64,000 nucleotides of DNA from Comamonas sp. BIGb0152 (GTDB lineage Bacteria > Pseudomonadota > Gammaproteobacteria > Burkholderiales > Burkholderiaceae_C): assembly GCF_024809975.1 (NCBI RefSeq), contig NZ_JANUDY010000005.1, positions 186,001 to 250,000 of the forward strand, written 5' to 3'. This document shows positions 2,210 through 10,825 of the stretch, piece by piece. The number at the start of each line of letters is the position of its first letter. Within the stretch, counting starts at the first letter, position 1. The position numbers and the translations under genes are program-made. The notes beneath the pieces were generated by a model. The model ran no database searches and was not told where the DNA came from. It was given only the letters and a program-made list of their open reading frames with translations.

Positions 2210-2977
2210 TCATGCGCCGCCATGCTCCGGCGCCGGTGCAAAGCTCATGAACAGGCCGTAGATGCCCAGCTGGGCCGCAATCTGCGGCAAAAAGCTGAAC
2301 AGCATGTAGAGCGGAACGGCAACCAGCAGGCTGCATTGCTGGGCCAGCCAGGCAAGGGACGCGGCCTGCAGCGGAATGCTGACCACCAGCATCAGCAAGC
2401 CGGTGAGGGTGGCAGCCACCTTGTGCAGCACGGGGATCGGGAAGATATAGAGCACCAGCGCATGCACAGCGGGCAGCAGCCAGAGCATGGCCAGCCCCAT
2501 GTCCAGGATGTTATCGGCCAGCAGGCGGTTGACGTCGCTCACGGCCAGTGCTGGCAGAAATTCATAGGACAGCAAACCGACCATGCCCAGCAAAGCGACG
2601 ATGCGCAAGCCGTAAATCAAGGGAAGGCGCTCGCGAGAGAGCACAAAGGACAGCACCATGAGGCCGATGCACATGAGGGCCCCGCCCCACCATTGCCACA
2701 GATTGGGCGGCGGCACATAGAACTGGGTGCGCACCACCTCGATCGGCACCCCGAGCAGTGAGGTGGTCTTGACCTGCACCCCGTCGCTGCTGCCCAGGCC
2801 CAGGTGCGGCCAGGCCCAGGCCAGCGCATCGGCCCACTGGTGCATCAGCAGCGGCGCTGCATGCCACAGCACCAGCCAGAAGGCCAGCAGCAGCACCAGC
2901 AGCTGGGCGCTGTGCTGCCAGGTCCAGATATAGCTTCTGAGCCCGCGGTGCTGGCGGGTCATGCGCAAAGGGGCCAT
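2210..2977 (-). CDS. Multispan inner-membrane protein of the polysaccharide cluster, function unknown
   Basis: 255 residues with a basic N-terminus and about six hydrophobic segments (near residues 25-45, 95-112, 122-142, 160-178, 185-205 and 215-245). I recognise no enzyme motif. It is the last gene of the seven-gene minus-strand polysaccharide cluster and starts 9 nt after the upstream outer-membrane barrel gene ends, so it is probably co-transcribed. By position it could be an accessory subunit of the synthase or export complex, or a transporter; this is inference only. An imperfect 10-bp hairpin at 2114-2138 follows the gene and may mark the transcript end. Confidence 0.6.
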   Translation of the reverse strand: MAPLRMTRQHRGLRSYIWTWQHSAQLLVLLLAFWLVLWHAAPLLMHQWADALAWAWPHLGLGSSDGVQVKTTSLLGVPIEVVRTQFYVPPPNLWQWWGGALMCIGLMVLSFVLSRERLPLIYGLRIVALLGMVGLLSYEFLPALAVSDVNRLLADNILDMGLAMLWLLPAVHALVLYIFPIPVLHKVAATLTGLLMLVVSIPLQAASLAWLAQQCSLLVAVPLYMLFSFLPQIAAQLGIYGLFMSFAPAPEHGGA

Positions 2978-2986
2978 GGCCTTGCC

Positions 2987-3877
2987 TTAGAAGTCGAAGA
3001 ACACCGCAGCGCTGACGCCCTTGCGGTTGTAGTAGGGGTTGCGGTAGAACTGGCCGCCCACCAGGTAGCCCCAGTCCTTGCCCAGCCACTGGCGCCACTG
3101 CAGGCTCAGCTCGGTCGATTGGAAGCCGACCTGGTCGCCCGCGCCATTGGCGATGGCGCCGGTGGGCAGGTAGCCTTCCTTGCCGTGGTCGATGCGGGCG
3201 GTGAAGTAGTGCTGCTTTTCGCGGCCCATGGTCAGCGCGGCAAAGCCCCGGTAGCCCTCGACCGAGCCGGGGTTGGATTTGTTGTAGACCAGGCCGCCTT
3301 CGCCCACCCAGTCCTTGGTCGAGTAGTAGGCGACCGAGGCGGTGATGCCGGTGTCGCGGTGGATGCCATCGCGGCTGGCCGATTTCATCAGCGCCAGGCC
3401 GGTCACCCATTGCTGGCTCTCGGTCCACTTGCGGTAAATGGCGATGTCACCCCGGTACTTGTTCTGGAAGTCGGCCGAGCCGGAGCTGGCACCCACCGAC
3501 ACATACCACCAGGGCGAGAGCGTGTGGGTGAGTGACAGCGCGCCCACCGTGCCGCGCTCGTCGAAATGGCGCTGGCTGGACAGGTCCCAGTTCAAGGTGG
3601 TGCCGGGCTTGAGGCCGACATTGCCGCGCACGAACTGCTCGTTCCAGTTGCTGTTGCCGCCGGTCAGGCTGGAAAAACCCATGCCCACGTCGACACGGCC
3701 CCGGCGGCCGGGTTCGAAGTCTGCGGCTGGCGCATCGGTGGCAGTGGGCGGCGCGGCAGGTGGGGTGGCGACCGTGGTGCTGGGCGTGGCATCAGCGGCC
3801 TGGGCCAAGGCCAGGACGGGTGCCAACAAGGCAGCGGCGCTCAAGGCCAGGGTGGTGGGGATGGTGCGTGTTTTCAT
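2987..3877 (-). CDS. YaiO-family outer-membrane beta-barrel protein
   Basis: 296 residues: a signal peptide (positively charged start, hydrophobic core, cleavage near ALAQA at 22-26), a Pro/Ala/Thr-rich linker to about residue 55, then alternating aromatic/Gly amphipathic strands typical of a barrel. It ends in the outer-membrane signature AAVFFDF with terminal Phe. The pattern (GRVDVGMGFSSL, GDIAIYRKW, QFYRNPYYNRKG) fits the YaiO outer-membrane domain found beside GT2 polysaccharide synthases. The likely role is passage or anchoring of the polymer at the outer membrane. It lies between the epimerase gene (18-nt gap) and the terminal membrane protein. Confidence 0.75.
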   Translation of the reverse strand: MKTRTIPTTLALSAAALLAPVLALAQAADATPSTTVATPPAAPPTATDAPAADFEPGRRGRVDVGMGFSSLTGGNSNWNEQFVRGNVGLKPGTTLNWDLSSQRHFDERGTVGALSLTHTLSPWWYVSVGASSGSADFQNKYRGDIAIYRKWTESQQWVTGLALMKSASRDGIHRDTGITASVAYYSTKDWVGEGGLVYNKSNPGSVEGYRGFAALTMGREKQHYFTARIDHGKEGYLPTGAIANGAGDQVGFQSTELSLQWRQWLGKDWGYLVGGQFYRNPYYNRKGVSAAVFFDF

Positions 3878-3895
3878 GGTCTTCTTCTGGAGGTG

Positions 3896-5086
3896 TCAGG
3901 CGGAGGTTGGTTGCAGATAGCGGGCAATGGCGGCGGCAATCTGCAGGCCACTGCTGCCATCTCCAAACGGGTTGTCGGGGGTGCTGGGGGGCAGGCCAGG
4001 CAACTGGCCCGTGGCCAGCACATGGCTGGCCGCCGAGAGAATGCGCTCGGCCCCGGTGCCCACCAGCAGGCCGGCGCCGCAGGTGATGACTTCGGGGCGT
4101 TCGGTCACATCGCGCATCACCAGCAGGGGCTTGTGCAGGGACAGGCCTTCTTCCTGGATGCCGCCGGAGTCGGTCAGCAGCAGCTGGGCGGCGTCCATGA
4201 TCTCGACCATGGGCGCGTAGTCCAACGGGGCCGTCAGGCGCCAGCGGCGCTGCACATCGGCGGGGCTGGCGGCATGCACGCCGCGCACCACCTGCTGCAC
4301 CAACGGGTTCAGGTGCAGCGGCCAGATCACAGCGGCATCGGGGTGCTGCGCCAGCAGGCGGGCCACCGATTGGGCAATCTCCGCCATGGGTTCGCCCCAG
4401 TTCTCGCGCCGGTGGGCCGTCACCAGCACCAGCTGGCGCAGACCGCTGTCGATGAACCACTGGTAGTCCGGGTTGGCCACCGGCTGGCCGGCAGCGCGCT
4501 GGGTGCGCACATGGTGGGCGGCCAGCAGCACGGCATCCACCACGGTGTTGCCCACCACCGAGATCTCGCCGGGCACGTTTTCCTTCTCCAGGTTGTCGCG
4601 GGCCTGGCCGGTGGGCGCAAAGTGCCATTGGCTCACGCGGCCGATCAGGCTGCGGTTGATCTCTTCGGGGAAGGGCTCGGCAATGCGGCCCGAGCGCAGG
4701 CCCGCCTCGACATGGCCGACGGGAATCTGCAGGTAGGCGGCGGCCATGGCGCCCATTGCGGCGCTGCTGGTGTCGCCATGCACCAGCGCTACGGCCGGCT
4801 TGAGGCTGGCCAGGGTGCTGCCGATGGCGGCCATCAGCTCGCTGGACAGCGCGGGCAGGGTCGCGACTTCGCGCTTGAGGCGGATCACCTCTTGGGGCGC
4901 GATGCCGAAAAACGCATACAGCGGCCAGGCCATTTCTTCATGCTGGCCGGTGTGCAGCACATGGGTGGTGATGCCGCGCTGGCGCAGGGCCAGCACCACG
5001 GGCGCCATCTTGATGATTTCTGGGCGGGTGCCCATGATGGCGACCACGGAGGACGGGGAGGGAGGGGAGGGAGGGGAGGAGGTCAT
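3896..5086 (-). CDS. wecB: UDP-N-acetylglucosamine 2-epimerase, non-hydrolysing
   Basis: Interconverts UDP-GlcNAc and UDP-ManNAc in the cytosol. The 396 residues match WecB size. Diagnostic pieces are GTRPEIIKMAPV near residue 18, VHGDTSSAAMGA, HVEAGLRSGRIAEPFPEEINR, VTAHRRENWGEP and LLTDSGGIQEEG. The start at 5086 overlaps the preceding stop as ATGA, giving translational coupling with the deacetylase-like gene. The first dozen residues are a Ser/Pro-rich tail encoded by a short GGAGGG tandem repeat (5056-5080). Its presence inside the polysaccharide cluster suggests a dedicated UDP-ManNAc supply for the synthase. Confidence 0.92.
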   Translation of the reverse strand: MTSSPPSPPSPSSVVAIMGTRPEIIKMAPVVLALRQRGITTHVLHTGQHEEMAWPLYAFFGIAPQEVIRLKREVATLPALSSELMAAIGSTLASLKPAVALVHGDTSSAAMGAMAAAYLQIPVGHVEAGLRSGRIAEPFPEEINRSLIGRVSQWHFAPTGQARDNLEKENVPGEISVVGNTVVDAVLLAAHHVRTQRAAGQPVANPDYQWFIDSGLRQLVLVTAHRRENWGEPMAEIAQSVARLLAQHPDAAVIWPLHLNPLVQQVVRGVHAASPADVQRRWRLTAPLDYAPMVEIMDAAQLLLTDSGGIQEEGLSLHKPLLVMRDVTERPEVITCGAGLLVGTGAERILSAASHVLATGQLPGLPPSTPDNPFGDGSSGLQIAAAIARYLQPTSA

Positions 5087-6972
5087 GGTTGGCGACGCAG
5101 TTCTAGGCGCAGTTGTGTACCGCCTTGCGCCCGCACCAGCCAGGCATCCTCGGTGCTTTGCACCTGGGCCTGGCCATCGCGCACGCGCACGGCTGCATAT
5201 TTTTTCTTGGGCAGGGTCCAGGCCATTGATGCCAGGGACTGGGGATGGCTGGCGCTCAGCAGCTCCTCGCCGCCCTGGGCCTGCACAGACCATTGCACCT
5301 GGGCACGGCGGCTTAGAAAGTCGGCCGCCTCGCCCATCGAGATGAACTGGCACTGCCTGCGATCGACGCAGGCCTGCACGCTGTCGATATAGGCCTTGAC
5401 GGCTGGCAGGTAGCCGACGGCGCCAATGGGGTGGAAGTAGCTCAGGCGAATGCTGCGGGTCTGCTCGATAAAGCGCGCCAGCTGCTGCAGCCACTGGCCG
5501 AATTCCTCGGTGGGCATGTTCTGGAACGAGGCTTCCTCGGCCGAGGCCACCTGGCCATAGGTCAGCACCGGAAAGGCCCAGGCCTTGTCGATGTGGCGCG
5601 TGCCCAGCCACAGCCGCGTGGGCGGCATGCCCACGTTGGCCACCGTGTAATAGGCTTGCACGCCGTGCTCGGCCATCCAGTCATAGGTCCACAGCGGCTG
5701 GTTGCCATTGGGGGCCGAGTATTCCCTGGGCACCTGGCCCTGGTTGGCCTGGGTGACGGAGGCATTGTTCAGATCGAGAAACGGCATGAACTCGTCGCCA
5801 TTGCTGTCGCTCGCCAGCTGGCCGAAATAGTTGTGGATCCAGCCGCCGTGGTTGCCGATGCTGTGGCCCTGGCTGCGCAGTTTCAGGATCATCTGCTGGG
5901 CCTCGTTGTTGTAGTCCAGGTCCATGCCCAGGCCATCGCCTTGCACATTCACATCCGGGCCAGCGGTGAAGTGCATGGACTGGTGGCCGTGGTCAAAAAT
6001 ACCGGCCTGCTGCAGCTCGCGCAGAAAGCCGATGGCCTTGCCGTCGTCGTTGTGCCAGTTCAGCACCAAGGCGCCAATGCCATTGGGCGAGGCGAGCAGC
6101 GCCGGCTGCACTACCACCTGCTGGGCAAAGTAGGCTAAAAAGCCATGCAGAAAAATGCCGTCGGTGCGCTGCAGCAAATAGGTCAGCGGCAGGTTGACGA
6201 ACATGGCCTGGCCCTGGCCCCAGCGGTGGACGCTGGCCACCACATCGCCATTGCTCGACTGCAGCAGCACTTGCAGGCCGTTGGGCCGGTCGGTTTTCAG
6301 CACCGTAAAGCGCTGTGAATCCTTGGTGTAGCCGGCAATGAAGCTGGGGAACGCGGGCTCTTGCACTGCCAGGTCGGCGGCATCGATGGCGGTGAGCTTG
6401 GCCGCGGCCTTGGCGTCCAGGTAGCGCCCGGGGGGTATGCCCAGCAGCTCCATGGTGGCCGGTGCGCCCCGGATTTCCTCGTAGTCGGACAGTTGGTCCT
6501 GGTAGGTGTCGTAGTCGCCATAGCGCACGCCGAGCATGGCCGACAGGCGCGAGCTGCCCCGGTTGTAATAGCCGCGCTCATCGAGCAGGCCGCCGTCTTG
6601 CACCACCATGGCCTGGCCACCGGCATGCACCACATCGATCAAGGTCTGCAGCGCGGCGTCCGAGATATTGCGGTGGAAGGTGTCGGGCACGATCACCGCC
6701 TGCTGCGCCGCAGGAGCGCCGTAGTGGATGCCACGCATCCACTCGCTGATGGGCAGCGGGCTGAGCAGTACCCCACGTTCGCGGGCGGCCTCACGCCAGA
6801 TCTGCACCTGGGGCGCATTGGCGGGCATGGCGTCGGGAATCAGCAAGCTGAGGGTGGCGTAGTGCTGGCTGGCCTGGAGGCTGCGCGACTGGTGCCAGGC
6901 CATGGCGGCCAGCACGCACAGCACGGCCGCTGCGCCGACCAGCCACTTTTTCCAGCGAAGTTGCATGTTCAT
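5083..6972 (-). CDS. Membrane-anchored polysaccharide-deacetylase-like protein
   Basis: 629 residues. A single N-terminal signal anchor (WKKWLVGAAAVLCVLAAMAW, residues 8-27) is followed by a large periplasmic part. Residues about 40-300 resemble a beta/alpha domain of unknown role. A NodB-like region starts near 300, with NDDG at 308-311 in place of the usual (T/S)FDDG and GNHGGWIH at 373-380 in place of GNH(S/T)xxH, so the second metal histidine is one residue further along. Candidate role: N-deacetylation of the nascent polymer, as PgaB does for PNAG. The start at 6972 was chosen for the GAGGGTGA site just upstream. It starts 11 nt after the preceding gene and overlaps wecB by 4 nt. Confidence 0.75.
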   Translation of the reverse strand: MNMQLRWKKWLVGAAAVLCVLAAMAWHQSRSLQASQHYATLSLLIPDAMPANAPQVQIWREAARERGVLLSPLPISEWMRGIHYGAPAAQQAVIVPDTFHRNISDAALQTLIDVVHAGGQAMVVQDGGLLDERGYYNRGSSRLSAMLGVRYGDYDTYQDQLSDYEEIRGAPATMELLGIPPGRYLDAKAAAKLTAIDAADLAVQEPAFPSFIAGYTKDSQRFTVLKTDRPNGLQVLLQSSNGDVVASVHRWGQGQAMFVNLPLTYLLQRTDGIFLHGFLAYFAQQVVVQPALLASPNGIGALVLNWHNDDGKAIGFLRELQQAGIFDHGHQSMHFTAGPDVNVQGDGLGMDLDYNNEAQQMILKLRSQGHSIGNHGGWIHNYFGQLASDSNGDEFMPFLDLNNASVTQANQGQVPREYSAPNGNQPLWTYDWMAEHGVQAYYTVANVGMPPTRLWLGTRHIDKAWAFPVLTYGQVASAEEASFQNMPTEEFGQWLQQLARFIEQTRSIRLSYFHPIGAVGYLPAVKAYIDSVQACVDRRQCQFISMGEAADFLSRRAQVQWSVQAQGGEELLSASHPQSLASMAWTLPKKKYAAVRVRDGQAQVQSTEDAWLVRAQGGTQLRLELRRQP

Positions 6973-6982
6973 GGTGTCACCC

Positions 6983-7972
6983 TCAGGGGTTGGCAACAGG
7001 TCCGGCAGCTGGCGCAAACGGGCACTGCGCGGCAATGCCCGTGTGTGCCAGCGACTGGTCGATCATCGCATCCAGCACCGTCCAGCCCACGCTGGGCTGG
7101 AAGGGCCGCAGCGATGCGCGCCAGCAGGCGGCCTGGATCGGTGCGGTCTGGCGCATTTTCCATGCAACCAGGCCCCATGCATAGTGGTCTTCGCTGCGCG
7201 ACAGCCAGGCGCTGCCATGCTGGGCCAGCCATTGGGCGGTGGCGCGGTCGGATTCGGCTGCGGAGATCACCCCGGTTTGCCACAGGTAGGCGCTGGCCAG
7301 GGTGTGGGGGTAAAAGCGCGGGCGGTCGTACTCGGGCAGCGCAGGCTTCCAGGCGCTGCCATCGCGGAACTGGCGGCGCATGGCCGCTGCCAGCTGCTTG
7401 GAGCGGGGGCCGGCCTGCGCGCCTTCGGTGGCGCGCAAGGCTTCGTAGACCTCGATGTTGTCCATCAGGTAGTACAGCTCGGTATCCAGCAAGGCTTTGT
7501 AGAGCTGGTTCTTGGGGTTGCGCAGGCGCGCAAGCAGTTGCTCGCTGCGTGCCATTGCCTGCTGGGCTGCCGCCTGCTGCCCGCTGGCCAGCCATTGTTT
7601 TTGCGTGGCGTAGTGCAGCATCTCGATGGTGGTAGCCGCCATCGAGTCATCGGCATCGGCGCCCATGCAGTTGCGCCAGGCCTTGTCGGCCGTGGGGCAA
7701 AAGCGGTCAAAGCCGCCATCCTTGCGCTGGCGAGGCAGCAACCAGGCCAGCCACTGCTGCAGCTCGGTCTGCAGTGGCGCATCGGCCTGCAGCGCAATGA
7801 TGAAGCCCTTGTTGATGAAATACGGATCCACCACCTGGCCGCCCAGGGTGCTGTAGTAGGCGCCGTCACCCGTGGCAAAGGCGGCCAGTGCTGGTGGCTC
7901 GGCTGTTTGCGCCGCGCCCAGCGCCTGCCAGGCCATGGCCGCCGAGGCGATCCAGAGATTGCGTTTTTTCAT
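6983..7972 (-). CDS. Probable periplasmic (alpha/alpha)-barrel glycosidase of the polysaccharide cluster
   Basis: 329 residues with a clear signal peptide (MKKRNLWIASAAMAWQALGA, cleavage near AAQ). The mature part is mostly helical with repeated aromatic/acidic motifs (RKDGGFDRF, GADADDSMAATTIEML, ELYYLMDNIEVYEAL, RSEDHYAWGL). This layout fits six-hairpin or GH8-like (alpha/alpha) glycosidases such as the BcsZ cellulase of cellulose operons, but I cannot assign a family number. ATGA overlap with the upstream bactofilin-like gene indicates coupled translation. Likely role: trimming of the polymer in the periplasm. Could also be a non-catalytic scaffold. Confidence 0.6.
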   Translation of the reverse strand: MKKRNLWIASAAMAWQALGAAQTAEPPALAAFATGDGAYYSTLGGQVVDPYFINKGFIIALQADAPLQTELQQWLAWLLPRQRKDGGFDRFCPTADKAWRNCMGADADDSMAATTIEMLHYATQKQWLASGQQAAAQQAMARSEQLLARLRNPKNQLYKALLDTELYYLMDNIEVYEALRATEGAQAGPRSKQLAAAMRRQFRDGSAWKPALPEYDRPRFYPHTLASAYLWQTGVISAAESDRATAQWLAQHGSAWLSRSEDHYAWGLVAWKMRQTAPIQAACWRASLRPFQPSVGWTVLDAMIDQSLAHTGIAAQCPFAPAAGPVANP

Positions 7973-8922
7973 AGCACCACCTGTCCGGAACGTACGGCCG
8001 CAATACTGCCATAAACCCGCACACTGGCCTGCAGCGCAATCGACCAGGCCGAGACGCTGCTGGGGCACTGCTTGCTGCCCACCTGGCTCTCGGGGCCCAG
8101 TTGCAGGCGCTTGCCGGCACACAGCGGGCCTTCGACATAGTTGTTGCCCTTGGTCTGCAGGTCGCCCAGCACAAACAGGGCGCCTTGCACACAGGCACCC
8201 TTGGCCAGGCTGGCATTGCCATGCACCTTGATATGGCCGACGACCACGGTCATCTCCTCCATCCAGAGGTTGCCCGTGACCACCAGGCCGCCTTGCACCA
8301 CGCTGCCCGCAGCAATGCGCAGATCGCCTTCGTGGCGCTTTTGCAGCTCCGTCAACGGCATGCCGTTGCCCAGTTCGGGCAGCGGAAAGTGGAGCGAGCG
8401 CTTGAGTGGCCAGGTGAAGACGCAGTTGGCTGCCAGGCGAAAAAAGCGGGTGCCCGGTGCCAGCACGATATGGCGCTCGGCGCTGGTCAGGCGCGCCAGC
8501 TGCACGGGACCCAGGCAGTGGATGCTTTTGGCATGCAGCACGCGCTGCACGCTGCTGTTGGCCTGCAGCTCGACCATATCGCTGGAGACCAGCGCGCGCA
8601 GCTGGGAGCGAAAGCCGATCACCAGCGGCTGCCCGGTCTTGGCCATCAAACGGCCCTGGCCGCGCGGCACCATCAGGCGCCCCTGGTCATCGAGGCGCCA
8701 TTGCGCGACACGGGGCATGGCTTCCAGCAGGCCCAGCTGCTCGGCCATGCGCTGCGCCGCATAGTCAGTGCGGCCGTTGTCCAGCGGGTCGATGGCCAGG
8801 GCATCGGCATCGCTGCGCGAGTACAGCTCGCGCAAGGCGGGCAGCAGCGGCAGCAAAAAAACCAGAGCGGTCACCACCAGCCACATGCTGCCAAACAGCA
8901 GCGGAGAGGAGGGGGCGTTCAT
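7969..8922 (-). CDS. Membrane protein with bactofilin-like beta-helical C-terminus
   Basis: 317 residues: one N-terminal transmembrane segment (about 9-30), a middle region without a recognised motif, and from about residue 195 a ladder of short Gly/Val repeats (GDLRIAAGSVVQGGLVVTGN, then VGHIKVHGNASLAKGACVQG and VLGDLQTKGNNYVEG). Such ladders are typical of polymer-forming bactofilin or right-handed beta-helix domains. It overlaps the synthase gene upstream and the glycosidase-like gene downstream by 4 nt each, so the three are translated as a coupled block. A scaffolding role for the synthase complex is plausible; this is inferred from fold and position. Confidence 0.6.
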   Translation of the reverse strand: MNAPSSPLLFGSMWLVVTALVFLLPLLPALRELYSRSDADALAIDPLDNGRTDYAAQRMAEQLGLLEAMPRVAQWRLDDQGRLMVPRGQGRLMAKTGQPLVIGFRSQLRALVSSDMVELQANSSVQRVLHAKSIHCLGPVQLARLTSAERHIVLAPGTRFFRLAANCVFTWPLKRSLHFPLPELGNGMPLTELQKRHEGDLRIAAGSVVQGGLVVTGNLWMEEMTVVVGHIKVHGNASLAKGACVQGALFVLGDLQTKGNNYVEGPLCAGKRLQLGPESQVGSKQCPSSVSAWSIALQASVRVYGSIAAVRSGQVVL

Positions 8923-10364
8923 ACGCGGGCTTCAGGCAGGGCAGGCGAGACGGGCACAGCGGGCGCCTGGCGGTAGCGCACGGTCTTGTCCCATTTGAAT
9001 TGGCGCTTGAACAGCTTGTCGAGCAGCAGGCCGTCGATTGTGGCCTTGGAGACGGCAATCATGCTGACGACAAAACCAGTTAACAGCAGTGGCAAGAGGC
9101 GCAGGCGGCGCTGGTGGCCGTCAAGGTGCACGGCAGCGGCCACTTCAAAGAAGGCGGCAAAGTTGCCCACGCAGGCAAAGCCCGTGGCAATCAGCAGCAT
9201 CAGCAGCGCAATGTTCACGTTGGCGCCGATGCCGTAGCCGGTGACCGTCAACACCAGCGCCAGCAACCAGCCCAGCAGCAGGATGGGCGACATCAGGAAC
9301 ACACCCAGCAGCGCAATACCGTCGACCCGCTCCATCCAGCGCAGGCCCTTGCGGGTCAGCATCTCGGTGCCCAGCTTGGTCATCACCTGGTTGTGGCCCT
9401 TGGCCCAGCGGCTGATCTGGCGAAAACGCACGGCCCAGCTCTCAGGCACTTCCTCATAGCATTCGGCGTAGCCCAGGTAGGCGGTTTGCCAGCCTTTGAG
9501 CAGCAGGCGGTAGGTCAGGTCGGTGTCCTCGGCCAGCACTTCGGGCGTCCAGCCGCCCACATCCTGCAGTGCGCTCAGGCGGATACCGCCCACTGTGCCG
9601 CCATATTGCGCCACAGCGCCCAGGTTGTAGCGGGCCTGCTGGTCCACCTGGTAGCCGCCAGAGCGCTCCAGATCCAGCAGCCGGGTGAGCAGGTTCACGC
9701 CCGCATTCTGCGGCACCACACGCCCCATAACGGCGCCCACCTCGGGATCAAGAAAGGGAGCCACCAGCTGCTTGATGATTTTCTTGCCCGGCAGGTAGTC
9801 GGCGTCGAACACCACGATCAGCTCGGACTGGCCCCGGGCCTGGACGATGGCCGTGGCATCGGCCAAGGCGGCAGCTTTGCCTGGGGGCCCTTCCTGGCGG
9901 TGAAACAGCTGCAGCCGGCCGGGGTGGCGGTCGGCATAGCCGTCGATGATCTGGCGTGTGCCGTCGGTCGAGCGGTCATTGACCGGCATGATCGTCAGGC
10001 GCTCGCGTGGGTAGTCCACATCCAGCAGGGCCTCGATGCAGCCGGAGATCACGGCCTCTTCGTTGTGCGCTGCAATAAAAACGGTGATGTGCGGCCAATG
10101 CGCCTGCTCAATACCGGCATACAGCGGGCGCTGGCGGGCAAACAGGCGGTTGAGGGTGAAGGCGTAGTGGCGAAAGGTGTAGAGCGCTTCCAGCGCAACA
10201 ATCAGCAGCAGGGCAGCCAGGCACAGGCCCAGACCCCAGGTGGCCCAGCTGATGCTGGCCAGGCCCGAATGGAGAGGCTGGGCATCAGCCAGCAGCGGCA
10301 TCAAACCCAGCACGGCTGCGCTGAGGATGGGGGCCTGAAGACGGGGTGCTGGATGCGATGGCAT
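8919..10364 (-). CDS. Membrane GT2 processive glycosyltransferase (polysaccharide synthase)
   Basis: 481 residues. Hydrophobic segments near 11-29 and 43-63 precede the catalytic domain (about 90-330), and three segments follow (about 352-383, 388-410 and 425-450). All processive-synthase signatures are visible: VND with Asp130, DAD at 187-189, the acceptor-base triad AED at 278-280 (usual TED/GED), and QISRW at 316-320. This is the architecture of PgaC, NfrB and BcsA-type synthases, without a PilZ domain. It is the first gene of the cluster. Linked wecB suggests UDP-ManNAc or UDP-GlcNAc as donor. Substrate identity is not provable from sequence. Confidence 0.88.
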   Translation of the reverse strand: MPSHPAPRLQAPILSAAVLGLMPLLADAQPLHSGLASISWATWGLGLCLAALLLIVALEALYTFRHYAFTLNRLFARQRPLYAGIEQAHWPHITVFIAAHNEEAVISGCIEALLDVDYPRERLTIMPVNDRSTDGTRQIIDGYADRHPGRLQLFHRQEGPPGKAAALADATAIVQARGQSELIVVFDADYLPGKKIIKQLVAPFLDPEVGAVMGRVVPQNAGVNLLTRLLDLERSGGYQVDQQARYNLGAVAQYGGTVGGIRLSALQDVGGWTPEVLAEDTDLTYRLLLKGWQTAYLGYAECYEEVPESWAVRFRQISRWAKGHNQVMTKLGTEMLTRKGLRWMERVDGIALLGVFLMSPILLLGWLLALVLTVTGYGIGANVNIALLMLLIATGFACVGNFAAFFEVAAAVHLDGHQRRLRLLPLLLTGFVVSMIAVSKATIDGLLLDKLFKRQFKWDKTVRYRQAPAVPVSPALPEARV

Positions 10365-10825
10365 GGTGATTGATAGAAAAAAGTTCTTACAACTTGAGAT
10401 TCGATTATATCAATCGACATTAATGCCTGAATAGTGTTTCAATAGGTATCCGAGTAAAAAGTAAGTGTTTATTAACGTCTAAGGTAATGGCTATCAAGCC
10501 TCACAGAAAAATCTATCCAGTCCAAGTTACAAATTGATGCTTGATCTGTCAGTGATTTTTCTGGTTGTGCCCGCATCCAGGTGGTGGCCGGCGCTGTTTT
10601 TAGCCCCTTTGGGCAGGTTTTGGCCTGTGGCCATGGCGCCAAAAAATGGCAAAAAAAATACGTTGCCCCCGTTGCCACGGTGGGCATGTCGGCCAGACCA
10701 GCGCGGGCATGCGGCAGCGGGGTCGGCACCCAAGGGTGCGGCCGTGCAGTGCCAGAAAGCCAGCGCCGTGTGGCTAGGCGGGGTGGCGTGTATGCGCTGG
10801 GCGCTGGTGCAGCGCTAGCGGGGGC
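10365..10825. other. 461-nt intergenic region without a convincing gene
   Basis: The first about 200 nt (10365-10560) are AT-rich and probably hold the promoter of the minus-strand polysaccharide cluster. The rest returns to high GC, with short overlapping open frames on both strands that lack ribosome sites, recognisable domains or consistent codon bias. I see no RNA gene; it may be remnant coding sequence. Confidence 0.4.
10401..10417 (-). promoter_or_regulatory. Inverted repeat over a possible -10 element upstream of the synthase gene
   Basis: TCGATT and AATCGA arms, 5 nt apart, enclose a minus-strand TATAAT-like hexamer (10404-10409), 37 nt upstream of the synthase start codon in a locally AT-rich stretch. 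The matching -35 is weak. A repressor bound here would block the promoter of the whole polysaccharide cluster. Confidence 0.35.

Follow-up and report, generated by a model that had tools for sequence, protein, structure and literature searches.

A cluster of seven genes on the reverse strand of Comamonas sp. BIGb0152, within a stretch of 64,000 nucleotides (contig NZ_JANUDY010000005.1, positions 186,001 to 250,000; this whole stretch is called the window), appears to encode an undescribed synthase-dependent exopolysaccharide system with a linked supply of uridine diphosphate N-acetylmannosamine (UDP-ManNAc) and a bactofilin-like partner, a reading to which we give a probability of about 0.68. 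The cluster comprises a family-2 glycosyltransferase (GT2), a bactofilin-like protein (BACT), a secreted toroid protein (GLYC), a NodB-like protein (NODB), a UDP-N-acetylglucosamine (UDP-GlcNAc) 2-epimerase (WECB), a YaiO-type barrel (YAIO) and a multispan membrane protein (TM7), and all seven were borne out at the positions given by a first-pass annotation of the sequence (Table 1). That these genes serve the synthesis and export of an exopolysaccharide is highly probable. A fold or family could be assigned to five of the seven products, although for BACT and NODB the assignment is weak, and several WecB lineages stand beside the synthase. Beyond the first-pass annotation, the present analysis adds the conservation of the cluster, the PgaC-like character of the synthase, an apparently optional deacetylation, the toroid fold, the predicted side of BACT and the several WecB lineages.

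Conservation of the gene set

Relatives of the cluster were collected by a profile search of GTDB genomes with an alignment of the GT2 synthase. The best 80 of 509 relatives form the locus set, a sample that leans towards synthases close to the window GT2, and 47 of these loci, each of at least 21 kb, form the full-flank subset. BACT lay within 449 bases of GT2, following or overlapping it, in all 80 loci, and TM7 was present in 77, YAIO in 72 (five matches below 100 bits), WECB in 67 (one a fragment), GLYC in 51 and NODB in 45. Three of the 51 GLYC matches (L021, L023 and L041) were weak, at 53-66 bits, and are omitted from the strict counts, which gave GLYC in 48 of the 80 loci. The full-flank subset contained WECB in 44, NODB in 36 and GLYC, counted strictly, in 33 of 47 loci. 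The complete seven-gene set was found in 30 of the 47 (27 without the weak GLYC matches), and a five-gene core of GT2, BACT, TM7, WECB and YAIO, which is independent of GLYC, was found in 44. The locus of Duganella sp. Root1480D1 has the five core genes, and neither GLYC nor NODB was seen in it. These genes mostly shared the strand of GT2 (BACT 80/80, TM7 77/77, YAIO 69/72, GLYC 50/51, NODB 43/45, WECB 60/67), and no eighth gene family was common to more than 11 of the 80 loci. The seven genes therefore co-occur in the 80-locus set, so the neighbourhood test that had been named earlier for the cluster was passed.

All seven congeneric loci have the identical order of the seven genes, with a hydratase-like gene on one side and an FAH-like gene on the other. 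The ratio of nonsynonymous to synonymous substitution rates was 0.08-0.28 for all seven genes against the orthologues of all seven congeners and 0.11-0.18 for a flanking gene; every cluster gene is under purifying selection. Co-occurrence, congeneric synteny and purifying selection together rule out chance open reading frames. The junctions GT2/BACT, BACT/GLYC and NODB/WECB overlap as ATGA in the window sequence, and the remaining gaps are 10 nt (GLYC/NODB), 18 nt (WECB/YAIO) and 9 nt (YAIO/TM7). The operon-like spacing noticed in the first pass is real, but it extends to six of six junctions rather than to four.

Table 1. Features of the cluster (window positions)
Feature	Description	Position	Strand	Basis
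GT2	PgaC-like processive family-2 polysaccharide synthase, 481 aa	8919..10364	-	PF13641, motifs, hydropathy
BACT	bactofilin-like, one N-terminal anchor, 317 aa	7969..8922	-	weak Pfam Bactofilin match, topology, model
GLYC	secreted alpha/alpha-toroid protein, presumed glycan hydrolase or binder, 329 aa	6983..7972	-	model and Foldseek
NODB	membrane-anchored, predicted periplasmic, GH42M-like and CE4-like halves, 629 aa	5083..6972	-	weak Pfam matches, motifs
WECB	non-hydrolysing UDP-GlcNAc 2-epimerase, 396 aa	3896..5086	-	TIGR00236, active-site residues
YAIO	secreted YaiO-family outer-membrane beta barrel, 296 aa	2987..3877	-	TIGR04390, PF19413
TM7	inner-membrane protein, about six hydrophobic segments, no known family, 255 aa	2210..2977	-	hydropathy, co-occurrence
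Upstream region	conserved region, possible leader or promoter of the cluster	10365..10560	-	blocks common to congeners

The synthase and its precursor

The window proteins were scanned against Pfam and NCBIfam (TIGR models), with matches listed to E<=1. GT2 matched PF13641 at 1.5e-32. The motifs D130, DAD, AED and QISRW had been read correctly in the first pass and are conserved in an alignment of 81 sequences (the 80 loci and the window): D130, DAD at 187-189 and E279-D280 are present in all 81, R319 likewise, and Q316 and W320 in 80. By hydropathy GT2 has five hydrophobic segments, as PgaC has. Five relatives share 51-55% identity with it, and one of these is from the same family as the window genome. 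The 80-member GT2 profile scored 133.9 bits with PgaC of E. coli, 75.4 with BcsA, 58.8 with YaiP and 15.4 with NfrB. The PgaC_IcaA model matched GT2 at 2.1e-35 with 122.5 bits, below its equivalog cut-off of 422.3, and by these scores GT2 is PgaC-related and not a PgaC equivalog. No MshEN domain was found in GT2 by Pfam at E<=1.

WECB is well assigned by TIGR00236 (355.1 bits, cut-off 210.15, 4.6e-106), and it keeps five of five residues matching K15, D95, E117, E131 and H213 of E. coli WecB, the last four of which we take to be active-site positions. K15 is an active-site residue according to PMC8669472. The window genome carries a second WecB copy on contig C6, 42.4% identical to the cluster copy. 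A tree of 94 sequences was built from 65 of the 67 locus WecBs, the window and plasmid copies and others, with two fragments shorter than 300 aa excluded. WecBs encoded downstream of the synthase (22 rows, window included) shared one starred clade with a single divergently placed copy, and those upstream or on the other strand came from several other places, in part next to ordinary WecBs from other genomes. Starred branches with non-cluster WecBs set these lineages apart. A 26-row clade contained no control sequence (support 100/99), an 'up' clade of seven had a control as its sister (8 rows, 100/100), a Methylococcaceae pair grouped with the other WecB of the window genome (3 rows, 100/97), and the WecB of locus L033 was nested in the clade of E. 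coli WecB (8 rows, 100/96). On well-supported branches, the 'up' label has to change five times or more.

Among the sequence evidence, the presence of several WecB lineages beside one synthase type speaks most strongly on the substrate, and it makes UDP-ManNAc a likely precursor. The ManNAc-derived polymer proposed in the first pass gains support from the same observation. In PMC8669469 and PMC8669472, NfrB is described as requiring WecB, and the nfrB-wecB linkage is interpreted as use of UDP-ManNAc.

One alternative, which we consider unlikely, is that the product resembles poly-N-acetylglucosamine (PNAG) or is a mixed polymer, with WecB balancing the UDP-GlcNAc pool or supplying a minor share of ManNAc. 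It draws on the kinship of the synthase, since PgaC was the closest of the four E. coli references and the PgaC_IcaA model matches, though far below its equivalog cut-off, and on the deacetylase-like gene in 45 of the 80 loci. Several WecB lineages stand beside the synthase, however, and a polymer of GlcNAc alone could do without that enzyme; moreover, E. coli PgaA, PgaB and PgaD scored no more than 2.1 bits with the BACT, GLYC, NODB, TM7 and YAIO profiles.

The bactofilin-like protein

Family alignments were made from locus members and the window sequence after length and redundancy filters and hand thinning, and they hold 52 of the 80 locus members for BACT, 38 of 51 for GLYC (three weak paralogues removed), 35 of 45 for NODB (L081 removed) and 44 of 77 for TM7. 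No Pfam model is matched by more BACT members than Bactofilin (PF04519), which finds 50 of 53 at E<=0.1, over the C-terminal half, and 10 of 53 at E<=3e-6, which is our own estimate of the Pfam Bactofilin cut-off. The predicted structure (pLDDT 89.1) has many short strands and is consistent with a beta-helix. A profile search of PDB sequences gave 19 weak matches, the best at 0.011, with two bactofilins among them. BACT differs from the bactofilins of PF04519 by an extra N-terminal transmembrane segment and a second strand-rich region. Because only 10 of 53 members come near the Pfam cut-off and no structural match was significant, the protein is named bactofilin-like rather than bactofilin on the present sequence evidence.

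BACT has a single hydrophobic helix at its extreme N-terminus. Topology was counted in 77 of the 80 members, three longer than 420 aa being excluded: lysine or arginine precedes the transmembrane segment in none of the 77 and follows it with a mean of 2.26 residues, at least two in 61 of 77. Since the positive residues lie after the segment and none before it, BACT is predicted to be membrane-tethered with its body on the cytoplasmic side. In a second cluster copy of the congener G501 (L122:8306-10045), BACT and GLYC are fused in one frame of 579 residues. A second hydrophobic segment, with arginines before it, lies between the two parts of this fusion, as would be expected with BACT inside and GLYC outside the membrane, and the arrangement hints that BACT and GLYC act together across the membrane.

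An improbable alternative places BACT in the periplasm, where as a beta-helix it would bind the polymer or modify it in the manner of AlgG, and would not be a cytoplasmic scaffold. Weak hexapeptide, EIF2B LbH and ice-binding beta-helix matches in some members would suit it, and the PDB profile search returned weak and mixed beta-helix matches only; the distribution of charges around the transmembrane segment and the arginine-preceded segment inside the G501 fusion argue against it. In two genomes from another family of the order (G177 and G540, loci L127 and L128), the bactofilin-like half stands alone and the other six genes were not found within 18 kb, so that a BACT-like sequence by itself is an imperfect marker of the cluster.

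The toroid protein and the NodB-like protein

GLYC matched no model of Pfam or NCBIfam. Its predicted structure (pLDDT 90.8) is an alpha/alpha toroid, for which Foldseek returned 4q2b (8.5e-5), 7qsj (1.3e-4), BcsZ 3qxq (8.5e-4) and 9b87 (9.3e-4). A GH8 glucanase and MmpH, a polysaccharide hydrolase, come closest in structure, and BcsZ stands lower in the list; GH8 glucanases and BcsZ matched at E 8.5e-5 to 1.6e-3 with TM-scores (query) of 0.50-0.58. GH8 was not among the Pfam matches of the 39 GLYC members at E<=0.1, and the GLYC profile met only complement C4A (0.053) among the PDB sequences. D106, D109, D171, N172, E174, Y221 and W297 are invariant in GLYC and D49 is kept in 36 of 39 members. 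In the model these residues lie at helix N-termini, as would be expected for a pocket. From its place in the operon, GLYC is predicted to act on a glycan. The first-pass description of a secreted glycosidase-like protein accordingly stands for the fold, whose nearest neighbours are GH8 and BcsZ, but it finds no counterpart in sequence kinship to GH8.

NODB begins with a hydrophobic segment that serves as an anchor. Among its 36 aligned members, Polysacc_deac_1 was matched at E<=0.1 by 34, over the second half, and GH42M by 12, over the first half; the NODB profile had no match among PDB sequences. H307, H380 and H514 are conserved in 36 of 36 and H375 in 35 of 36, and we take H375 and H380 to be the motif-2 histidines of the CE4 family. 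Motif 1 is altered: D309 is present in 30 of 36 members and replaced by Cys in 6, and the second Asp is kept in only 4. The partly deacetylated polymer suggested in the first pass thus keeps the recurrence of NODB on its side, but the gene is accessory and its CE4-like site unusual. Judged from this gene content, deacetylation is optional to the system; where NODB is present, we regard it as somewhat more probable than its absence. In one locus (L016, genome G420) the cluster is flanked by a pair of NODB-family genes lying on opposite strands; the window has one.

The outer-membrane barrel and TM7

YAIO scored 143.3 bits with TIGR04390 (cut-off 32) and matched PF19413 at 1.9e-18; only YaiO barrel models matched at E<=1, and no tetratricopeptide repeat (TPR) was among them. 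The synthase-plus-porin arrangement put forward in the first pass holds as far as the barrel goes, but the barrel shows no TPR match and its export role is our inference. TM7 has six segments by hydropathy, and six is also the mode of its family. Its only Pfam match was a sub-threshold one to Ion_trans (0.017), and no family was common to more than one of the 45 TM7 members.

That the pathway instead modifies lipopolysaccharide, peptidoglycan or another polymer already in the envelope, with the beta-helix-like protein serving cell-wall morphogenesis, is very unlikely, because GT2 carries all processive motifs and, with no eighth family in more than 11 of the 80 loci, no constant ligase or flippase was seen, even though bactofilins are described in the literature as organisers of wall synthesis and a YaiO barrel with no TPR match is short for a polymer pore.

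Proposed mechanism

What we infer about substrate and product, about export and about a scaffold fits together as follows. Cytosolic WecB would make UDP-ManNAc, and the PgaC-like GT2 would polymerise it, the chain passing through the synthase's own membrane channel with the probable assistance of the six-segment TM7. BACT, held by its one-helix anchor with a cytoplasmic body, would bind the synthase and organise it spatially; such a bactofilin-like scaffold has about an even chance of being correct. In the periplasm, the BcsZ-like toroid of GLYC might trim or edit the chain and NODB, where present, might strip some N-acetyl groups, after which the polymer would leave through the YaiO barrel. 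A bolder version, in which the BACT relative is an obligate partner that arrays a PgaC-type synthase and the product is a secreted, partly deacetylated poly-ManNAc fibre made by bacteria from Burkholderiales to Acidobacteriota and Gemmatimonadota, is tentative and, taken as a whole, doubtful.

Several observations weigh against the exopolysaccharide system as we read it. The distribution is patchy: with the window's own genome counted, the BACT profile matched in 8 of 53 genomes of the genus and 9 of 300 of the order, and the cluster is present in 7 of those 9 order genomes. In 13 of the 80 loci, three of them full-flank, no WecB was found, and in one further locus it is a 59-bit fragment; losses may account for some of the label changes in the WecB tree, for which the software gave a long-branch warning. 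Pfam Bactofilin matched the window BACT at 7.5e-4 with 20.1 bits, below the cut-off of 27.9, and Foldseek of the BACT model gave 77 matches at E<=10 with none at E<=0.001, bactofilins included; polymerisation of BACT is hypothetical. The GLYC profile scored -2.1 bits with BcsZ, with no detectable sequence kinship, and terpene cyclases and complement domains with the same toroid are in its structural match list at TM-scores of 0.38-0.48. Polysacc_deac_1 matched the window NODB at 0.05, with 14 bits against a cut-off of 23.1. No domain binding cyclic di-GMP (c-di-GMP) was found in the seven window proteins by Pfam at E<=1.

Few synthase-dependent exopolysaccharides have been characterised, and the NGR system of E. 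coli is the only synthase-plus-porin candidate for ManNAc met in the literature consulted, and its ManNAc is only postulated. The present cluster offers another synthase with a tie to WecB, one only distantly related, and a gene set with which the presence of ManNAc can be tested directly in environmental strains. The fixed position of BACT beside the synthase in all 80 loci also suggests that polysaccharide synthases may include a cytoskeletal protein as a built-in part, as was proposed earlier for cellulose ribbons, where no protein was named (PMC7811197).

Relation to known systems

In the searches made, the gene set matched no named operon, in agreement with the first pass. Its logic resembles, by analogy, that of PNAG, cellulose and NGR secretion, with a precursor enzyme, a membrane synthase, a periplasmic hydrolase and deacetylase, and an outer-membrane barrel, and its distinguishing elements are the bactofilin-like partner, TM7 and the toroid family.

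The Nfr/NGR system (NfrB, NfrA, YbcH and WecB) shares a GT2, an outer-membrane protein, a link to WecB and a proposed ManNAc polymer, which PMC8669472 only postulates for NGR itself. According to PMC8669472 and PMC8669469, NfrB has an MshEN c-di-GMP domain and NfrA has TPRs and a 16-strand barrel. The linkage to WecB is common to both systems, whereas neither an NfrB-type synthase with MshEN nor a TPR protein was seen here, and the window cluster adds the bactofilin-like, toroid, NodB-like and TM7 genes. A direct Nfr orthologue was rejected on the 15.4 bits of NfrB against the 133.9 bits of PgaC. The first-pass comparison with PNAG and NfrA/NfrB is apt for PgaC, which is close, but NfrB is distant and the analogy with it is one of logic only.

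The pgaABCD operon of PNAG has in common a PgaC-like synthase, the logic of deacetylase and hydrolase and an outer-membrane exit, but the window has deacetylase-like and toroid folds on separate proteins, together with WecB and the bactofilin-like gene. The PNAG operon was rejected after the PgaC equivalog test and the PgaA, PgaB and PgaD tests failed. The annotated E. coli locus yaiS-yaiP-yaiX-yaiO likewise combines a GT2, a YaiO barrel and a putative deacetylase, but no WecB, bactofilin-like, toroid or TM7 gene is annotated there, its GT2 is 24% identical and its YaiO is remote (14.3 bits). Cellulose Bcs systems pair a synthase with a hydrolase of the BcsZ fold, and BcsZ itself is encoded in the cellulose operon. 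Gluconacetobacter offers, in its cortical belt, a precedent for a cytoskeletal structure beneath a polysaccharide synthase (PMC7811197); the belt protein is not identified in that paper, whereas clusters of the window type carry the bactofilin-like gene beside the synthase in all 80 loci. A pairing of synthase and bactofilin-like protein was not found in the open-access literature, outside which lie most subscription papers and all preprints.

Distribution and mobile versions

By record title, 55 of the 80 loci belong to Pseudomonadota, 9 to Acidobacteriota, 7 to Gemmatimonadota and 2 each to Eisenbacteria, Krumholzibacteriota and Rhodothermales; one is labelled Corynebacterium (L026) and two have no taxon name. 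The 25 loci titled outside Pseudomonadota are metagenome-assembled genomes (MAGs) throughout, some possibly mis-binned, and the Corynebacterium locus probably is. Carriers without a MAG title include Duganella, Collimonas, Ralstonia, Cupriavidus, Chromobacterium, Aquitalea, Hydrogenophaga and Burkholderia species. With the genome of the window included, the GLYC profile matched in 5 of 200 genomes of the order and the NODB profile in 3 of 299 of the phylum at E<=1e-8.

A GT2 search of 72,556 plasmid records gave two matches at E<=1e-80. The conjugative plasmid NZ_CP057682 of Escherichia fergusonii (IncI1/B/O; L100) has a single run of BACT, WECB, YAIO, TM7, an acyltransferase, GLYC and GT2 (L100:4353-11206). 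Its BACT is annotated as 'polymer-forming cytoskeletal protein' with a late start, and a longer frame restores the N-terminal anchor of the family. Genes of adhesin or fimbria type are annotated within the same 21 kb, and the GT2 DNA of this plasmid had no match in E. coli genomes in megablast mode. The second match, a stretch of a Cupriavidus megaplasmid (L101), has all seven genes. Location on a conjugative plasmid suggests transfer between bacteria, which could alter surface glycans and hence phage receptors.

Upstream region, regulation and flanking genes

The region upstream of GT2 contains blocks that are conserved with five of the seven congeneric carriers and reach the GT2 start codon; a 15-nt block of it was not found in the other two congeneric loci at up to 2 mismatches. 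The region matched in full length at this site only in the genome, and it is possibly a dedicated promoter or regulator site. A sigma-70 scan gave 0 sites, and Rfam gave one sub-threshold match in the upstream region (E 0.25).

A GGDEF-EAL type family, made up of large sensor genes, lies near the cluster in 11 of the 80 loci, six of them Polaromonas; the member at L041:6861-9605, the one submitted to a domain scan, has CHASE-like, PAS, GGDEF and EAL domains. Control of the cluster by c-di-GMP is possible. The window genome is 5.0 Mb in 22 contigs. Named by eye from the open reading frames of the window, the upstream neighbour of the cluster is an enoyl-CoA hydratase-like gene and the downstream neighbours are muconolactone isomerase-like and FAH-like genes, and these flanking genes look catabolic and unrelated to the cluster.

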